Source: an uncultured Pirellulaceae bacterium
GTDB lineage: Bacteria > Planctomycetota > Planctomycetia > Pirellulales > Pirellulaceae
Length of the DNA stretch: 64,000 nt
Assembly: GCA_938083195.1 (NCBI GenBank)
Contig: CALKCK010000020.1
Location: forward strand, 124,001 to 188,000
Direction of reading: 5' to 3'
The notes beneath the pieces were generated by a model that saw only the letters and a list, made by a program, of their open reading frames with translations, had not been told where the DNA came from and ran no database searches. This document shows, in pieces, positions 29,101 to 39,185 of the stretch (the stretch's first letter is position 1; each line of letters starts with the position of its first letter). The position numbers and the translations under genes are program-made.

Positions 29101-30474
29101 CTAACGCCGGCGGCGACGGACAAGCATGGCGAATGCACCAAGTCCAAGAAGAACGGCACTTGAGGGTTCCGGGACACTGTGGATGTGCCAAGAAAAACCA
29201 AAGTCAGTCGCAGAATTACCAGAAATCCGGAAAGTATAATCTCCTCCGTCGAGTCCCTCAAAAAAGATATGCTCGTTGTTGTAAGCAGTTCCATTACTGG
29301 CGTCGAGGAGCGAACCTAAGAACGAACCGGAGGAATCAAATAATTCAAGATTCAGATCCGCGAGATTCCTTTCCGCTTCAAACGCTGCACTTGAATCCAC
29401 ATCAACGATGTCAATATTCCAACTCAAGACTGCTGATAAACTTGCGTTACCACCTGACGAAATTGAAAAGTCGTAGAAGAGATCTTTGCTTCCATCAAAA
29501 TCTCCATAGTCCCAACCGCGGTCATTTATATTTGTGGTGGGGTCTGTGGTCGATCCTTCGAACTGACCGCCTTCAAAAATGTGATAACTGTTGAGGATAT
29601 TTAACTCACCAAAACCAAACACTTCGTCCATCGGCCGTGTCGAGGTTCGATCCCATGAAGCGAATTCATCTTTGGTCGCTCCCGCAAAAAGTGTCGATCG
29701 GATTACCTCGTTTTGGACAAAGTCGGTTCCTGCACCGGCCTGTTTTAACAAAGCCGCAGCGCTGCCCACCACTGGCGTTGAGAAGCTAGTCGCGCCAGCC
29801 GACGGCACGACGATTGAGGTTGCGAACCGCGGCGCACCATAAACAGAAGTTAAGCTTTGGGAATGACCACCGTCTGAACGCCCCACAGCGATGGCGTTAT
29901 AGCTAGGGGTTAACACTTGTGGGGTTGCAGTCGTCGAACCGTTGTTCGCGCCAACTACCATTAAAGTATTGTCGCGATTGATGACAAAATCGAATCGCTC
30001 GAGAATATCCTCAGCTTGGGCCGTCGTCAGACCGTTGCCAACGTAGCTGTGATTACCGATGTCGAACGCAGGCGTCGAGTTCAGATCGTTTCCGCTAAAC
30101 GCGTTTAGCCAATTAAAGATGTAATCGTTCGCATCGTATCCCGTAATGTTACTAATGCCACCGGTCATGCTTGACGAATTACCGTAATAATTATTTGCGA
30201 CCAGAGTCCCATGGTTGTTGGCACCGAACGCCCCCGATCCCTCGGTGAACGTCTTCCCGGAAAATTCTGCAGCGGTGACATCCGGCATGTAATTTCCGGC
30301 GGTATCAGGAGCTTCAGCCTGCATTACATTGAGTCCCGATCCATCTTCAAGGCTCCCGCCTTTTTCAGAAACCAAGTCGTTGAAACCAATCTTAGATTTC
30401 CAAGTCTGGCCAAAAGTCAGCGTGGAGGGCAACCAAAGCATTGCGAAAATAATAACAACTGATCGACAATTCAT
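29101..30474 (-). CDS. Subtilase-like exported protein with PEP-CTERM sorting signal
   Basis: A 457-residue exported protein. A signal peptide (VVIIFAMLWLPSTLTFGQ) precedes a divergent S8 serine peptidase-like domain. The His motif is NNHGTLVANN (H88), an oxyanion Asn candidate lies in VVGANNGS (about 177), and the Ser motif is GATSFSTPVVGSAAALL (S230). The Asp of the triad is not obvious; D44 in LEDGSGLNV is the best candidate. A beta-sandwich region with Asp-rich loops (NIDIVDVDSSAAF, DGGDYTFRISG) follows. The C-terminus is a textbook PEP-CTERM tail: VPEPSSAVLLGLGAFAMLV plus an Arg cluster. It is convergent with dnaB and divergent from the transferase gene. Confidence 0.8.
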   Translation of the reverse strand: MNCRSVVIIFAMLWLPSTLTFGQTWKSKIGFNDLVSEKGGSLEDGSGLNVMQAEAPDTAGNYMPDVTAAEFSGKTFTEGSGAFGANNHGTLVANNYYGNSSSMTGGISNITGYDANDYIFNWLNAFSGNDLNSTPAFDIGNHSYVGNGLTTAQAEDILERFDFVINRDNTLMVVGANNGSTTATPQVLTPSYNAIAVGRSDGGHSQSLTSVYGAPRFATSIVVPSAGATSFSTPVVGSAAALLKQAGAGTDFVQNEVIRSTLFAGATKDEFASWDRTSTRPMDEVFGFGELNILNSYHIFEGGQFEGSTTDPTTNINDRGWDYGDFDGSKDLFYDFSISSGGNASLSAVLSWNIDIVDVDSSAAFEAERNLADLNLELFDSSGSFLGSLLDASNGTAYNNEHIFFEGLDGGDYTFRISGNSATDFGFSWHIHSVPEPSSAVLLGLGAFAMLVRRRRR

Positions 30475-33736: not shown

Positions 33737-36370
33737 TCACTTGATTTGAGCAGCACCCGATTCAGTTAATTCAACTCGGCTTCCACTTAGGATGTCATTA
33801 TGTTGCGTCCGTTTTCCACTGGGCCAAATTACCTCGACTTGATCGATTTTCTTGCAAGTCCCCATGCCAATGTGAATTCGTTTAGAATTTTGAGTCGAAA
33901 CACCCTCGCCGCAATTTAACTGAAACATTCGTTTCTCATCACCGCAGGTGACTAATAGTCGAGCGCCAAATGGCTCTCGAGAGCTCCACTCTAACGAAGG
34001 ACTTGCGCTCTCCTGCCCCCCGACCAACGTTACCTCAACAAACGAATTCTCTCGACTTGCTTGAACACCCATTTTATTTTTGGCGATTCGGAATCGTGGG
34101 TAATTAGGACTGGTAATACCCAAATCTAACCAACCATCGCGGTCGTAATCCAACAGAGCAAATCCGCGACCATCCTCCCGAAAGTCGATACCAGAAACCA
34201 ATGAGAGATCCTTGTAATTTCCGTCTTCCCTCATGAACAGGCGATTTCGCTCGCCGCCACTTAACGCATTGCTTCGAAAAACTGCTCCTGGCTTGGGATC
34301 GTCGGCCAGTGGAAAAGTCATCATTTCCATTCCTTCTTCTGGCCCCCACTGTTCGAGGTTGGAAAATTCATCGTCAACATCTGGAGCGAAACGCACGGCC
34401 GTGCGCCACAGGCAACTTCACAAATCTTTATCGTTAGCAACTTCTTTGGGTGGCGTATAAAATCCGCTCGCTACATAAATATCTAATTCACCGTCGTTGT
34501 TAAAATCAGCGAACTGCCCACCGTACGACCAACCAACACTCGAAACATGCTGTTGATCTTTTCCAGAGCCTGCAACCTGACTTAATTTCCCATTGTCGTT
34601 GACGTACAAAAAGTTTCCGTGTGCAGAAACGCGCAACCGCTCATTCACATCATCCAGTTGATTGACGATTCGCAATCCAGCCTTGGAATACATATTTGAA
34701 ACATAAAGGTCGAGATCGCCATCGTTATCGAAATCACCCCAGGAAGCGCCCATTGCAAACCCCATTACTGAATTGCCTGCAACTTCCTTAGTCACGTCGG
34801 TAAATTTAGGCTTAAAGGACCCTCGTTCTGTCTCGTTGCGGAGAAAAACATCTGGAGAAAAATCATTACAAACATATACGTCAAGATCCCCATCCTGATC
34901 GAGATCGGTCCAAACCGATTGATAGGAATCGCGATACTGTTTCAATGAGTCCCCGATTTTCGCCCATTCAAACGAATTGCCCCGGTTCATCAAAAGAATA
35001 TTGGGGGGACCACCTCGATCGACGTAAGTGTGCGCTCGCTCAATCTTTAGTCTAGTCTTCAAGCGTTCATCGACCCGAGTCGTTTGCTCAAACCAATCCT
35101 TCAACTCACCTTGCCCATAGGCATAGGTGCTTAAATAGAGGTCAAGTAATCCATCGCGATTGACATCAACAACAGAGGCTGCCAGCACAAAACGAGTCTC
35201 CGCAAGTACTTCGTTGATTTTTGCATGTGGCTGGAAGGTTCCGTCTTGGTTTACAAAAAACAGACTCGGCCCCATGGAGCGGCCAACGAACGCATCGGAA
35301 TCACCGTCATTATCAAAGTCAAAGAAACAGGTGCAATTGGCCAACTCATTCACCAAAAGCCCACTCTCCTGAGTCACATCTTCAAAAGTTCCGTCCCCTT
35401 TGTTTTGCAACAATTGGGCTGGAGACCAACGATCTGTGACAAACAAATCATCAAATCCATCGTTATTAAGATCGAGAACACTGACCGAAGGGTACTGAAA
35501 CGCCGACTCCCAATCATCAAAACTTTTATACTCATTTCGAGCATGTTTAAAAGAATTAGTTACGCTGACTTCACCAGTGAACTTCAAAATCATTTCCTGA
35601 TGCGAAGACTTTTGAACTTGTGTTCGCGTCACCTCATCTGGAATCGCAATTTTGGTTACGTTTTCGAAAAGCGGCTGCGATACTTCAACTAACTTCAACT
35701 GAGTCTGACGCCAACCGACCAATTCCCAACTATCATCATCGCGGGATTGCCAAGTCAAGGTTTGATAGCCCTTTACTCCGACCAAGTACCCATCGGGCTC
35801 TCGCATTTTTCCTTCGAGCTTCGTCTCCATTTCGAACCGGTCTCTTCCTCCGACGAAAGCTCCTTTAAGGACACCAATTTGCCCATCTTCGAATTGGCCG
35901 TTGGAAAGTAGCGGTATCAGTAACTCACTCCAACCAATTGACTTTTCTGAATCGTCGATTGGCCATTCTGAAATAACCGCCGCCTTCTGGCTCGTTTGTG
36001 TCCTTTTCGTTCGACTATTTTTGTCAAAGTCAAAAACTCCAAGCCCGACATGCGTAATTTGATCTCGAATAAATCCAGAAACATCAATTTCTGAATCACT
36101 TAAAGATCTCGCAATGGTTTTCATTTGCGGGGAAAGTGCCTGCAAGAGATTTTCAGAATCGGCGATCCCTTTAATCTTTACCTGCTGTGGTGAGAGAGCA
36201 TCGTCCGCAGAGTCCGATATTGTTGGTGAACTCTTCGGGATTTCCACCACTTCGTCTTTTTTGCATCCACCGATGACAGCTACTAAAAAGCCGAGCGTCA
36301 TTAAGATTGCCCCCGTTCGCTTCGGGGTAAAACACGAGGCTCGACGGGTGTTAAGTTGGTTCATAACCAT
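33737..36370 (-). CDS. Candidate selenoprotein A: FG-GAP/ASPIC-UnbV (CRTAC1-like) lipoprotein with in-frame TGA
   Basis: Read through one in-frame TGA (34420-34418), this is a protein of about 877 residues. A lipoprotein signal ends in VIGGC. A middle region carries FG-GAP/VCBS repeats with Asp-rich Ca-binding loops (DLNNDGFDDLF, DFDNDGDSDAF, DVNRDGLLDLY, DLDQDGDLDVY, DFDNDGDLDLY, DFNNDGELDIY). Then come the TGA and a C-terminal ASPIC/UnbV domain (FGARLLVTCGDEKRMFQL, VEVIWPSGKRTQ). The TGA lies between NDKDL and SCLWRTAVR, inside continuous homology to its tandem paralogue. Conventional calling splits it into 34418-36370 and a GTG-started 33737-34396. A Sec residue at about position 651 would form a Sec-Ser-Cys motif. 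It follows paralogue B by 45 bp, probably in one transcript. Confidence 0.75.
34391..34420 (-). promoter_or_regulatory. In-frame TGA with downstream hairpin (candidate SECIS element, copy A)
   Basis: The TGA codon is followed by 11 nt (AGTTGCCTGTG) and then by GCGCACGGCCGTGCGT, which folds into a 6-bp stem (one terminal G-T pair) with loop GGCC. Bacterial selenocysteine insertion elements are short hairpins about a dozen bases after the UGA with a G at the start of the apical loop. Position and shape fit, but no folding program or SelB-binding test was available. Confidence 0.6.
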
Positions 36371-36415: not shown

Positions 36416-38977
36416 TCACTCAGTTCGCTCCAAAATCTTAATCTGGCTCCCCGTTGGGATATCTAAACGTACCGACTTTTTTCCGCTAGGCCAATTAACT
36501 TCGATGCGGTCAATAGAATCAATCGACCCCATGCCAACATGGATCTGATTCGAATTCTGACTGGAGAGTCCTTCTCCGCAGGATAGTTCAAATTTCCTAG
36601 TTCGTGTTCCTGTCGTTACCAAAACAGACGCTCCAAAGGCGTCCCGGGAGCTCCATTCTGAGGTCGGCTTAGAGGAATCGTGCCCTCCCACCAGCTGAAT
36701 ATCTACAAACCCATTCTTATTCTCTTGTCGATCACCAATTTGGTTTCGAGCAACCCGAAACCGTGGATTATTTGGACTTACGACTACCACATCAAGAAAT
36801 CCATCTCGATCGTAATCGAATAATGCAAAACCGCGACCATCCTCACGGAAATCAATGCCCGACACCAAGGTCATGTCATCGAAATTTCCGTCTCGTTGCA
36901 TGAAAAGGCGATTTCGTTCACCGCCACTAAAAGGAGCACTTCGAAACGGCGGCCCCCCGCCATCCACAGCTTCTTCGCGTTCAAACAATCTAATATCGAA
37001 ATGGTTTAATCCGCCTCCCCACTCTTCAGAAAACACAAAATCTTTATCTCGACTTGGATCCGTGCGCACGACCGAGCGCCAGAGGCAACTTCACCAATCT
37101 CCTTCTTTTCGAACCTCCGGAGGAGGCGTATAGAACCCACTAGGCACATACAGATCAAGATTTCCATCATTATCAAAATCACAAAATTGCCCGCCAAACG
37201 ACCAACCTACTTGAGCGACTTTTTGAAAGCCCTTTGCATTACCGGCAACCTGCTTAAATTTCCCATCACCAATGTTTTGATATAAAAAATTCCCACGTGC
37301 CGAGACTTTCACTCGCTCATCAACATTGTCAAATTGTTCGACGATCCGGTTCCCCGCTTTTGAGTACATATTTGAAACGTACAAGTCCTGCAGGCCATCG
37401 TTGTTATAATCACCCCAACTTGCTCCCATCCCAAAGCCCATCGTCCCTCCCGGAACCAATTCCTCGGAAACATCCGTAAACTGGAGCTTGAAGGATCCGC
37501 GTTGGGTATCGTTACGAAGAAAACGGTCCGGTGAAAAATCATTGCATAGATAAATATCTTGATCACCATCCGAATCAAAGTCTGACCAAACAGTTTGATA
37601 GGAGTTACGCCATTGAGCCAGTTCGTCGCCTACTTCGGCGCGAGTCAGTTTTCCATTTTGATTCAAAAGTACAATATTTGGCGCTCCCGCTCGATCTAGG
37701 AAAAAATGAGAACGCTCAACCTTCATTCGCATTTTGACCTGGTCTTTGACCCGTACGGAATCACCAATCCACTGAGCGGCATCCCCCGTCCCCAAACCGT
37801 AGGTGCTCAGATAAACATCCAGGCATCCGTCTCCATTAATGTCGACAACAGAACCGGAAACTACAAATTTCACAAACGCGTACTCTTCCGTCAGTGATTC
37901 GTCTAGCTTGAATTTGCCTTGATCATTCTCGAAGTACTGGCTTGGTTCGAGCGTTCCACCAACAAACACATCTGAATCGCCATCATTATCGAAATCAGCA
38001 AACAACGAACAACAAGCCAATTTCTTAACATCGAGACCAGCACTAGCCGTCACATCCTCGAAAGTTCCATCTCCTAGATTTCTCAACAATTGTCCCGACT
38101 GCCAACGGTCTGTCACGAACAAATCATCAAGACCGTCTTGATCGATGTCGACTACACTTACCCCTGGATACTGGTAGGCCGACTCCCAATCATTGAAATG
38201 TTTGTACTTGTACTGGGTGTCCTTAAATTGACGACTGTCGATTTGAGAGTTGGCCAGAATCAGATCGACGTGCGATGAACTTTGGACTTTCCTGAGTGCT
38301 TCGGGGTCGGGAATAAGACGCGTCGTCACTTCTTCAAACAAGACGTCTCGAGATCCGATCAGTTTTAGTTTGGTCTGATTCCATTGGCTAATTTTCCACT
38401 CTCCGCGGTCATCCTTACTCCAGCGAAACGTTTGGTAACCAGTCACCCCCACAACCAGATCATTGCCCATTAAAAAACGACCCTCGATTTTAGTATCCGT
38501 TTCGTAGTCGTCTCCAACAAACCGAGTCGAGAGTGTGCCAATCTGGCAATCTTTGAGTGTAGCTTTGGCCCTCAGTGGTTGCCAAATTTCTGCTGCGGCA
38601 ACCATTTTTGATTTCGACTTTGCGGTCAAAGGCCAATTGCAATACTTTCCCAAATCGGCATCTTCAATCGCAAGTGCCGCTCGAAAATCAAAACGATCAA
38701 TTCCTGAATATTCCACGGCCTCGGTAAAGAGGGTTGGGCTGGGCAAGTCAGGATCGGATAACCACTTTGGAATCAGGCTCATTGATCCCGCAAGCGATTG
38801 GAGAAGTTCCTCTGACTCATTGATCGATTCAATTTTCTTGTCGACCTCAGAAAGGGATTCTTCGACTAGATCGCCGTTGTTTTCGACATTATCTATCTCG
38901 CTTGGACTTTCAGGTTGGCCGCAACCCAACACGATGAGGAACAAACCTAAATAAAATAATCTCGCCGAAAGTCGCAT
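36416..38977 (-). CDS. Candidate selenoprotein B: FG-GAP/ASPIC-UnbV (CRTAC1-like) lipoprotein with in-frame TGA
   Basis: Paralogue of the downstream gene, about 853 residues when read through the in-frame TGA at 37093-37091. The start at 38977 gives a clear lipoprotein signal (MRLSARLFYLGLFLIVLGC). VCBS/FG-GAP repeats follow (DIDQDGLDDLF, DFDNDGDSDVF, DINGDGCLDVY, DFDSDGDQDIY, DYNNDGLQDLY, DFDNDGNLDLY), then YTPPPEVRKEGDW, the TGA, SCLWRSVVR, and an ASPIC/UnbV domain (FGASVLVTTGTRTRKFEL, IEVNWPSGKKS). A Sec residue would be at about position 629, again in a Sec-Ser-Cys motif. Without recoding the gene is split into 37091-39007 and a GTG-started 36416-37069. Residues after the TGA are as well conserved between the paralogues as those before it. 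It is the first gene of the pair. Confidence 0.75.
37064..37093 (-). promoter_or_regulatory. In-frame TGA with downstream hairpin (candidate SECIS element, copy B)
   Basis: The TGA is followed by 11 nt (AGTTGCCTCTG) and then by GCGCTCGGTCGTGCGC, which folds into a GCGC/GCGC stem with an 8-nt loop TCGGTCGT (or a tighter GGTC loop closed by an inner C-G pair). The GGU in the loop resembles the loop of the known E. coli formate dehydrogenase element. The spacing from TGA is identical to copy A although the bases differ. Confidence 0.6.
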
Positions 38978-39185
38978 GTCTTTAAAAACCTTTTGAGTAC
39001 AGAGCAAGCTTATTGTACTCTGTTTTTAATAGAACGGTCAGATACTTTTACTTAGCTTCGTGCCGAGCTTATACAAATTTAAAAATGCCCTCCCAAATGC
39101 ATAAAAATCAACGCCCGATAAAGCCTAGGGGTATACCTTTTCTATACGTTTAAATCCGAAGACGGGTCGTTAAGATTCGGTTTGA

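Follow-up and report, generated by a model that had tools for sequence, protein, structure and literature searches.

A 2026 survey of prokaryotic selenoproteins (PMC13188914) lists 119 families in its Table 1 and gives the majority of characterized bacterial selenoproteins a thioredoxin-like fold. In the bSECIS model of its section 5, an apical loop with G in the first two positions lies 16–37 nt from the UGA. The genes described here share with the catalogued bacterial selenoproteins an in-frame UGA, a downstream hairpin with a G in the loop, the Sec machinery, and Cys homologues, but no family listed in that survey is an FG-GAP/ASPIC propeller. The terms FG-GAP, ASPIC, VCBS, Planctomycet, Verrucomicrob, and propeller are absent from its main text. 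The closest protein of known structure is CRTAC1 (PDB 9etn), which heads the PDB matches both by sequence (E 1.5e-34) and by fold (Foldseek E 1.4e-24, TM 0.73 for the target and 0.48 for the query). An FG-GAP-type propeller and an ASPIC-like C-terminus are common to both; however, CRTAC1 is an animal protein, 15% identical, and the Sec helix is not covered by its profile alignment. Many long members of the family have a C-terminal domain that resembles the AhpC-TSA/redoxin proteins, CxxC included; in contrast to those proteins, it is fused here to the Sec-bearing propeller.

According to the original prediction, a Sec in an FG-GAP/ASPIC-UnbV lipoprotein is not known from a described family. 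This still holds for the sources covered: neither protein matches any NCBIfam 20.0 family at E ≤ 0.1, and no counterpart stands in the PMC13188914 list. Nor was the family met in the passages covered of PMC2398784 and of PMC4807772, which treats selenoproteins in two planctomycetes and lists its candidates in a supplementary table. No published description was found in the open literature that was searched, and an earlier mention in subscription papers or preprints is possible. The family is apparently a large, uncatalogued selenoprotein family.

The window, which is the whole stretch of 64,000 nt that was analysed, contains two neighboring members (Table 1). In the first gene, the TGA is the single internal one, in the context KEGDW-TGA-SCLWRSVVR, and 224 codons separate it from the terminal TGA of the frame. 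The product, read through, is over the Pfam cut-offs for PF13517/PF01839 and PF07593 (116.4, 73.1, and 51.8 bits). The best FG-GAP stretches, residues 277–339 and 515–540, are N-terminal of the TGA, and UnbV_ASPIC, residues 780–845 (E 7.5e-14), is C-terminal of it. The frame does run uninterrupted through the ASPIC/UnbV domain, as had been claimed. Four homologues with 81–84% identity to this product have TGA at the identical codon. Since both Sec genes of the window terminate in TGA, this codon is also an ordinary stop here, in agreement with the original prediction. The N-termini of both proteins are hydrophobic and end in LGC or GGC, which by eye has the look of a lipoprotein signal; a crude lipobox pattern is present near the frame start in only 24 of 117 members.

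Table 1. Positions in the window of the two predicted selenoprotein genes, their in-frame TGA codons, and the adjoining hairpins.
Feature	Position	Strand	Details
FG-GAP / ASPIC-UnbV selenoprotein (predicted)	36416..38977	-	853 residues, Sec at residue 629
In-frame TGA, predicted to be read as Sec, D-W-U-S-C-L-W-R	37091..37093	-	codon 629
bSECIS-type hairpin GCGCUC-GGUC-GUGCGC = GCGCTCGGTCGTGCGC	37064..37079	-	11 nt after TGA
Tandem paralogue, next gene downstream (predicted)	33737..36370	-	877 residues, Sec at residue 651, D-L-U-S-C-L-W-R
In-frame TGA of paralogue, predicted to be read as Sec	34418..34420	-	codon 651
bSECIS-type hairpin of paralogue GCGCAC-GGCC-GUGCGU	34391..34406	-	11 nt after TGA

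The tandem paralogue is additional to the original prediction, and its product is 50% identical to that of the first gene. The genome contains seven copies, as follows: the window pair, a further tandem pair on contig C30, and a run of three on C32. The C30 and C32 copies all have TGA, and all have D-x-U-S-C-L-W-R. A TAA that was counted in one C32 match is the gene's own end, 227 codons past its TGA. Contig C51 has two weaker family matches without TGA (G000:C51:8084-9778; E 2.7e-53 and 4.8e-24), the second holding an in-frame TAG, and the two are possibly one gene. Elsewhere, too, Sec members often occur in tandem pairs or a triplet (L165, L173, L178, L179, and L243, besides the window).

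The first set of homologues was drawn from genomes of 84,980 species and consisted of the top 80 loci among 536 confirmed stretches. Within this set, a D-aromatic/aliphatic-x-xxx-W-R motif is found at 24 sites, of which 22 have TGA at the Sec position and two, both from Acidobacteria, have Ser. Three loci (L028, L040, and L035) have D-L-TGA without the W-R. Among 294 Planctomycetota genomes, 113 have a family match at E ≤ 1e-40. Mostly four candidates were scored per genome, and among the 150 matches listed, 135 have at least one in-frame TGA, 14 have none, and one has a TAA only; a single TGA is not always at the Sec column (e.g., G281, L241). The listed TGA-bearing matches come from 65 of the 294 genomes. 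Since the query was Sec-bearing and the lists were ranked, best-row lists, the codon proportions at the aligned column, 127 TGA and 28 sense codons in 155 members, are not population estimates, and some genomes are counted twice under two labels (e.g., G019 and G113). The sense codons specify Cys (8), Glu (4), Arg (4), Ser (3), Ala (2), Gln (2), and Asn, Trp, Asp, Gly, and Thr (1 each), with five doubtful rows among the non-TGA rows, as relatives or as alignments (L092, L059, L146, L038, and L144). TAA and TAG are found at this column in none of the 155 members. When one row is kept per 120-nt context, there are 124 distinct TGA rows and 20 others. The surroundings of the codon are conserved, with Asp at −2 in 124/124, Trp at +4 in 111/124, and Arg at +5 in 100/124.

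In a FastTree tree of 149 of the 155 rows, from which L092, L059, L146, and short-flank rows were left out, a single branch separates all eight Cys rows from the rest; for these rows and L212, a long-branch warning applies. When just one Cys row was known, the possibility of a family lacking Cys forms was entertained, and it was dropped once more Cys loci appeared. In paralogues, the Sec column is occupied by Glu, Ala, Gln, Arg, or Asn. Several genomes with the paralogues L134–L143 and L145 (Glu, Ala, Gln, or Arg) also have TGA members, and the long ones among these paralogues lack the CxxC described below. In the verrucomicrobial phylum to which G006 belongs, 240 genomes, with at most five candidates scored in each, gave six matches at E ≤ 1e-60; the sole TGA match is that of G006, which suggests that Sec forms are much less common in this phylum. 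Family matches in G110:C36 (L151, L218), G213:C393 (L150, L216), G062:C17 (L149), and G164:C276 (L152) have, besides the TGA, one or two in-frame TAG codons, which may reflect a gene end, decay, an assembly error, or another recoding.

A hairpin with GGU in the loop, 11 nt after the TGA of the first gene, had been predicted, and GCGCTCGGTCGTGCGC does begin at exactly that distance and presents a GGUC loop. Its stem consists of four G-C/C-G pairs, a U.U mismatch, and a C-G pair closing the loop, in place of which RNAfold draws an 8-nt loop. The hairpin of the paralogue is cleaner. The loop, GGUC in the first gene and GGCC in the paralogue, begins in each case 17 nt past the TGA, and both hairpins lie within the loop and distance specifications of the PMC13188914 model. 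The 45-nt folds have energies of −12.8 and −10.8 kcal/mol, respectively. The idea of a fold stable on its own was not upheld, as RNAfold finds both folds no stronger than shuffles (z 0.08 for the first gene and 0.73 for the second), and a fold at shuffle level is no proof of a hairpin in a single sequence.

Instead, at the level of sequence, the hairpin is established by comparison of homologues. The loop closed by the best stem in the TGA rows is short and starts 14–21 nt after the TGA, nearly always 16–21, and letters 18–21 after the TGA are GGTC in 60/124. The hairpin score at 123 TGA sites has a mean of 16.81, versus 9.92 for synonymous recodings, in which the same amino acids were recoded with each gene's own codon usage. 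The score exceeds its own null mean at 123/123 sites and, taken singly, reaches p < 0.05 at 60/123 and p < 0.01 at 16. The Wilcoxon p of 3e-22 overstates the evidence since the rows are related. The 20 non-TGA rows score at the level of their null (8.62 versus 8.78), with five of them at 12.5 to 19.5, and the means at six control positions in the same genes range from 4.81 to 9.13. The stems include GCGACA/UGUCGC, GCGCCAC/GUGGCGU, CUCGGUC/GACCGAG, GAACGUC/GACGUUC, and AAAGUUUC/GAGACUUU; their letters differ among members while remaining complementary, so it is the pairing that is conserved. Energy alone is no discriminator, since two of 27 TGA sites fall short of the published model's −7.5 kcal/mol and both Ser sites reach it.

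Judged from its gene content, the genome can make and insert selenocysteine. All four genes that the original prediction had singled out for a search are present over their cut-offs, as follows: selA (590.6 bits, cut-off 267.9), selB (366.2, cut-off 242.25), selD (258.6, cut-off 125), and selC, the tRNA-Sec, with anticodon TCA (67.4, cut-off 47). The selD sequence is the C-terminal part of a frame of about 740 residues (L100, G000:C40, 1151-3403, minus strand), whose N-terminal half has, by eye, the look of an NADH dehydrogenase-type flavoprotein; the SelD half has Cys (CLGCGGK), not Sec.

Across the 294 planctomycetes, selA is present in 59/65 genomes with a listed TGA match versus 133/229 others (Fisher p 2.7e-7). 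In a smaller sample, 49 genomes representing 50 of the first 80 loci, selA over cut-off does not discriminate (17/21 TGA genomes and 18/28 others); of the four TGA genomes without selA in that sample, three, all but G013, have a tRNA-Sec over cut-off. Twenty-five genomes with a family match and without selA at E ≤ 1e-60 were searched again, and among the 45 matches listed, with the codon at the column read in the retrieved loci, Cys (TGC) is found at seven loci in five genomes, Thr at one, and TGA in seven genomes. The motif of the Cys form is D-Y-C-[TS]-x-[FY]-W. In these 13 genomes, selB is over cut-off in 6/7 with TGA versus 0/6 with Cys or Thr (Fisher p 0.0047). The TGA genome with neither selA nor selB over cut-off is G110, and all seven TGA genomes are 67–91% complete. 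Altogether, the eight Cys rows come from six genomes, five of them without selA (E ≤ 1e-60) and without selB over cut-off; the eighth row, L147, is in a selA-positive genome (G125). The tRNA-Sec scores, whose cut-off is also exceeded in 5/14 control genomes, give a less clear picture: among the seven TGA genomes they are unambiguous in G313 (69.7 bits), marginal in G110, G199, and G329 (49–51), and below 47 in the other three; of the six Cys or Thr genomes, only G215 (Thr) is over cut-off, again marginally, at 49.8 bits. As for the Ser forms, the genome of L025 has selA and tRNA-Sec, and that of L030 has neither over cut-off.

The machinery, the TGA column, the hairpin, and the Cys homologues in selA-less genomes all support the predicted Sec reading of the TGA, and we put the probability that UGA is decoded as Sec across the family, both window genes included, at roughly 0.93. 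SelB and tRNA-Sec would decode the UGA of both tandem genes under the direction of the hairpin just 3′ of the codon. The Sec would be carried on a CRTAC1-like scaffold, an FG-GAP β-propeller with an ASPIC/UnbV domain, where it would open a short helix (D-x-U-S-x-x-W-R) situated C-terminal of an FG-GAP repeat. An AF2 model based on 29 sequences (pLDDT 81.6, pTM 0.86) has a helix at residues 628–638 (block pLDDT 82–84), which places Sec 629 near the helix N-terminus. Such a position is a common site of reactive Cys and Sec. Most likely, the selenol would react with an oxidized substrate outside the cytoplasm and be reset by a nearby thiol.

For long members, defined as having more than 340 residues from the Sec site onward, the resetting thiol would be the CxxC of the fused thioredoxin-like domain. 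Many of them have a C-terminal AhpC-TSA/redoxin domain, which we take to be of the TlpA type, some with TPRs; PF00578/PF08534 are over cut-off in 2/5 proteins and 6/10 segments of long members. The CxxC is present in 81/89 long Sec forms, leaving eight without it, versus 0/10 long non-Sec forms, these ten including the doubtful L092 and seven that are cut by the retrieved stretch yet extend past the place of the CxxC. The two Ser forms, L025 and L030, have a redoxin domain over cut-off and have lost the CxxC. In short members, including the window genes, the thiol would be the Cys two residues past the Sec (U-S-C), which is found in 12/31 short Sec forms versus 0/85 long ones, mostly in close relatives of the window genes. 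The window proteins continue for 224 and 226 residues past the Sec and lack the redoxin domain with its CxxC. Given that the tree yields only two to three independent contrasts for Sec with CxxC and that both a CxxC and a Cys at +1 to +8 are missing from 18 complete short Sec forms, we regard a redox step with the CxxC or the +2 Cys as partner thiol as probable, though with some reserve.

Those 18 forms would suit a genuine Sec that acts as a metal ligand or as a structural or sensing residue instead of a thiol-linked redox center. FG-GAP-type repeats are calcium-binding, many conserved Asp residues of the family lie in them, and Glu, Gln, or Arg occupies the site in paralogues, as such a role would allow. 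Against it, Cys homologues exist, and the CxxC is missing in 10/10 long forms without Sec; we think this role unlikely, if less so than any reading without selenium. That the TGA is a plain stop, giving a shortened protein or a second half restarted at a downstream GTG, is what table-11 ORF calling yields for the first gene (37091-39007 and 36416-37069). This is very improbable in view of the TGA at one column in 127/155 members, where TAA or TAG never stands, the long sense frames on both sides, the motif conserved across the codon, and the hairpin after it. Readthrough as another amino acid, such as Trp, with no selenium, can point to other residues in the non-TGA rows, including one Trp in the divergent L146, and is scarcely credible where TGA terminates genes normally, the genome has the complete Sec set, TGA goes together with selA and selB, and Cys takes the column in genomes without the machinery. 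The stop, reinitiation, and Trp readings were rejected on these grounds.

Decoding as Sec adds to the 119 families catalogued in PMC13188914 a candidate selenoprotein family on a scaffold absent from its list. Standard gene calling splits the genes of this family at the TGA, as it does in the ORF list of the window. That Sec and the thioredoxin-like CxxC are missing together turns a redox relay into a specific, testable proposal and offers a handle on the function of FG-GAP/ASPIC proteins. More tentatively, this may be among the largest bacterial selenoprotein families, missed as gene callers cut at UGA, and may consist of exported propeller enzymes of which the long forms have their own thioredoxin-like reductant; use of multiple copies could then help account for the retention of the Sec machinery across much of the Planctomycetota.

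No common function emerged from the gene neighbors of members. One Sec member (L035, 181-10630, plus strand; D-L-U-A-E-F) is in a same-strand run that resembles a small biosynthetic cluster, with a GH3-family protein, two fatty acid desaturases, an AurF-type oxygenase, and a PAP2 protein. In the window itself, 29104-30474 on the minus strand encodes a 457-residue protein whose only Pfam match is a PEP-CTERM sorting motif.
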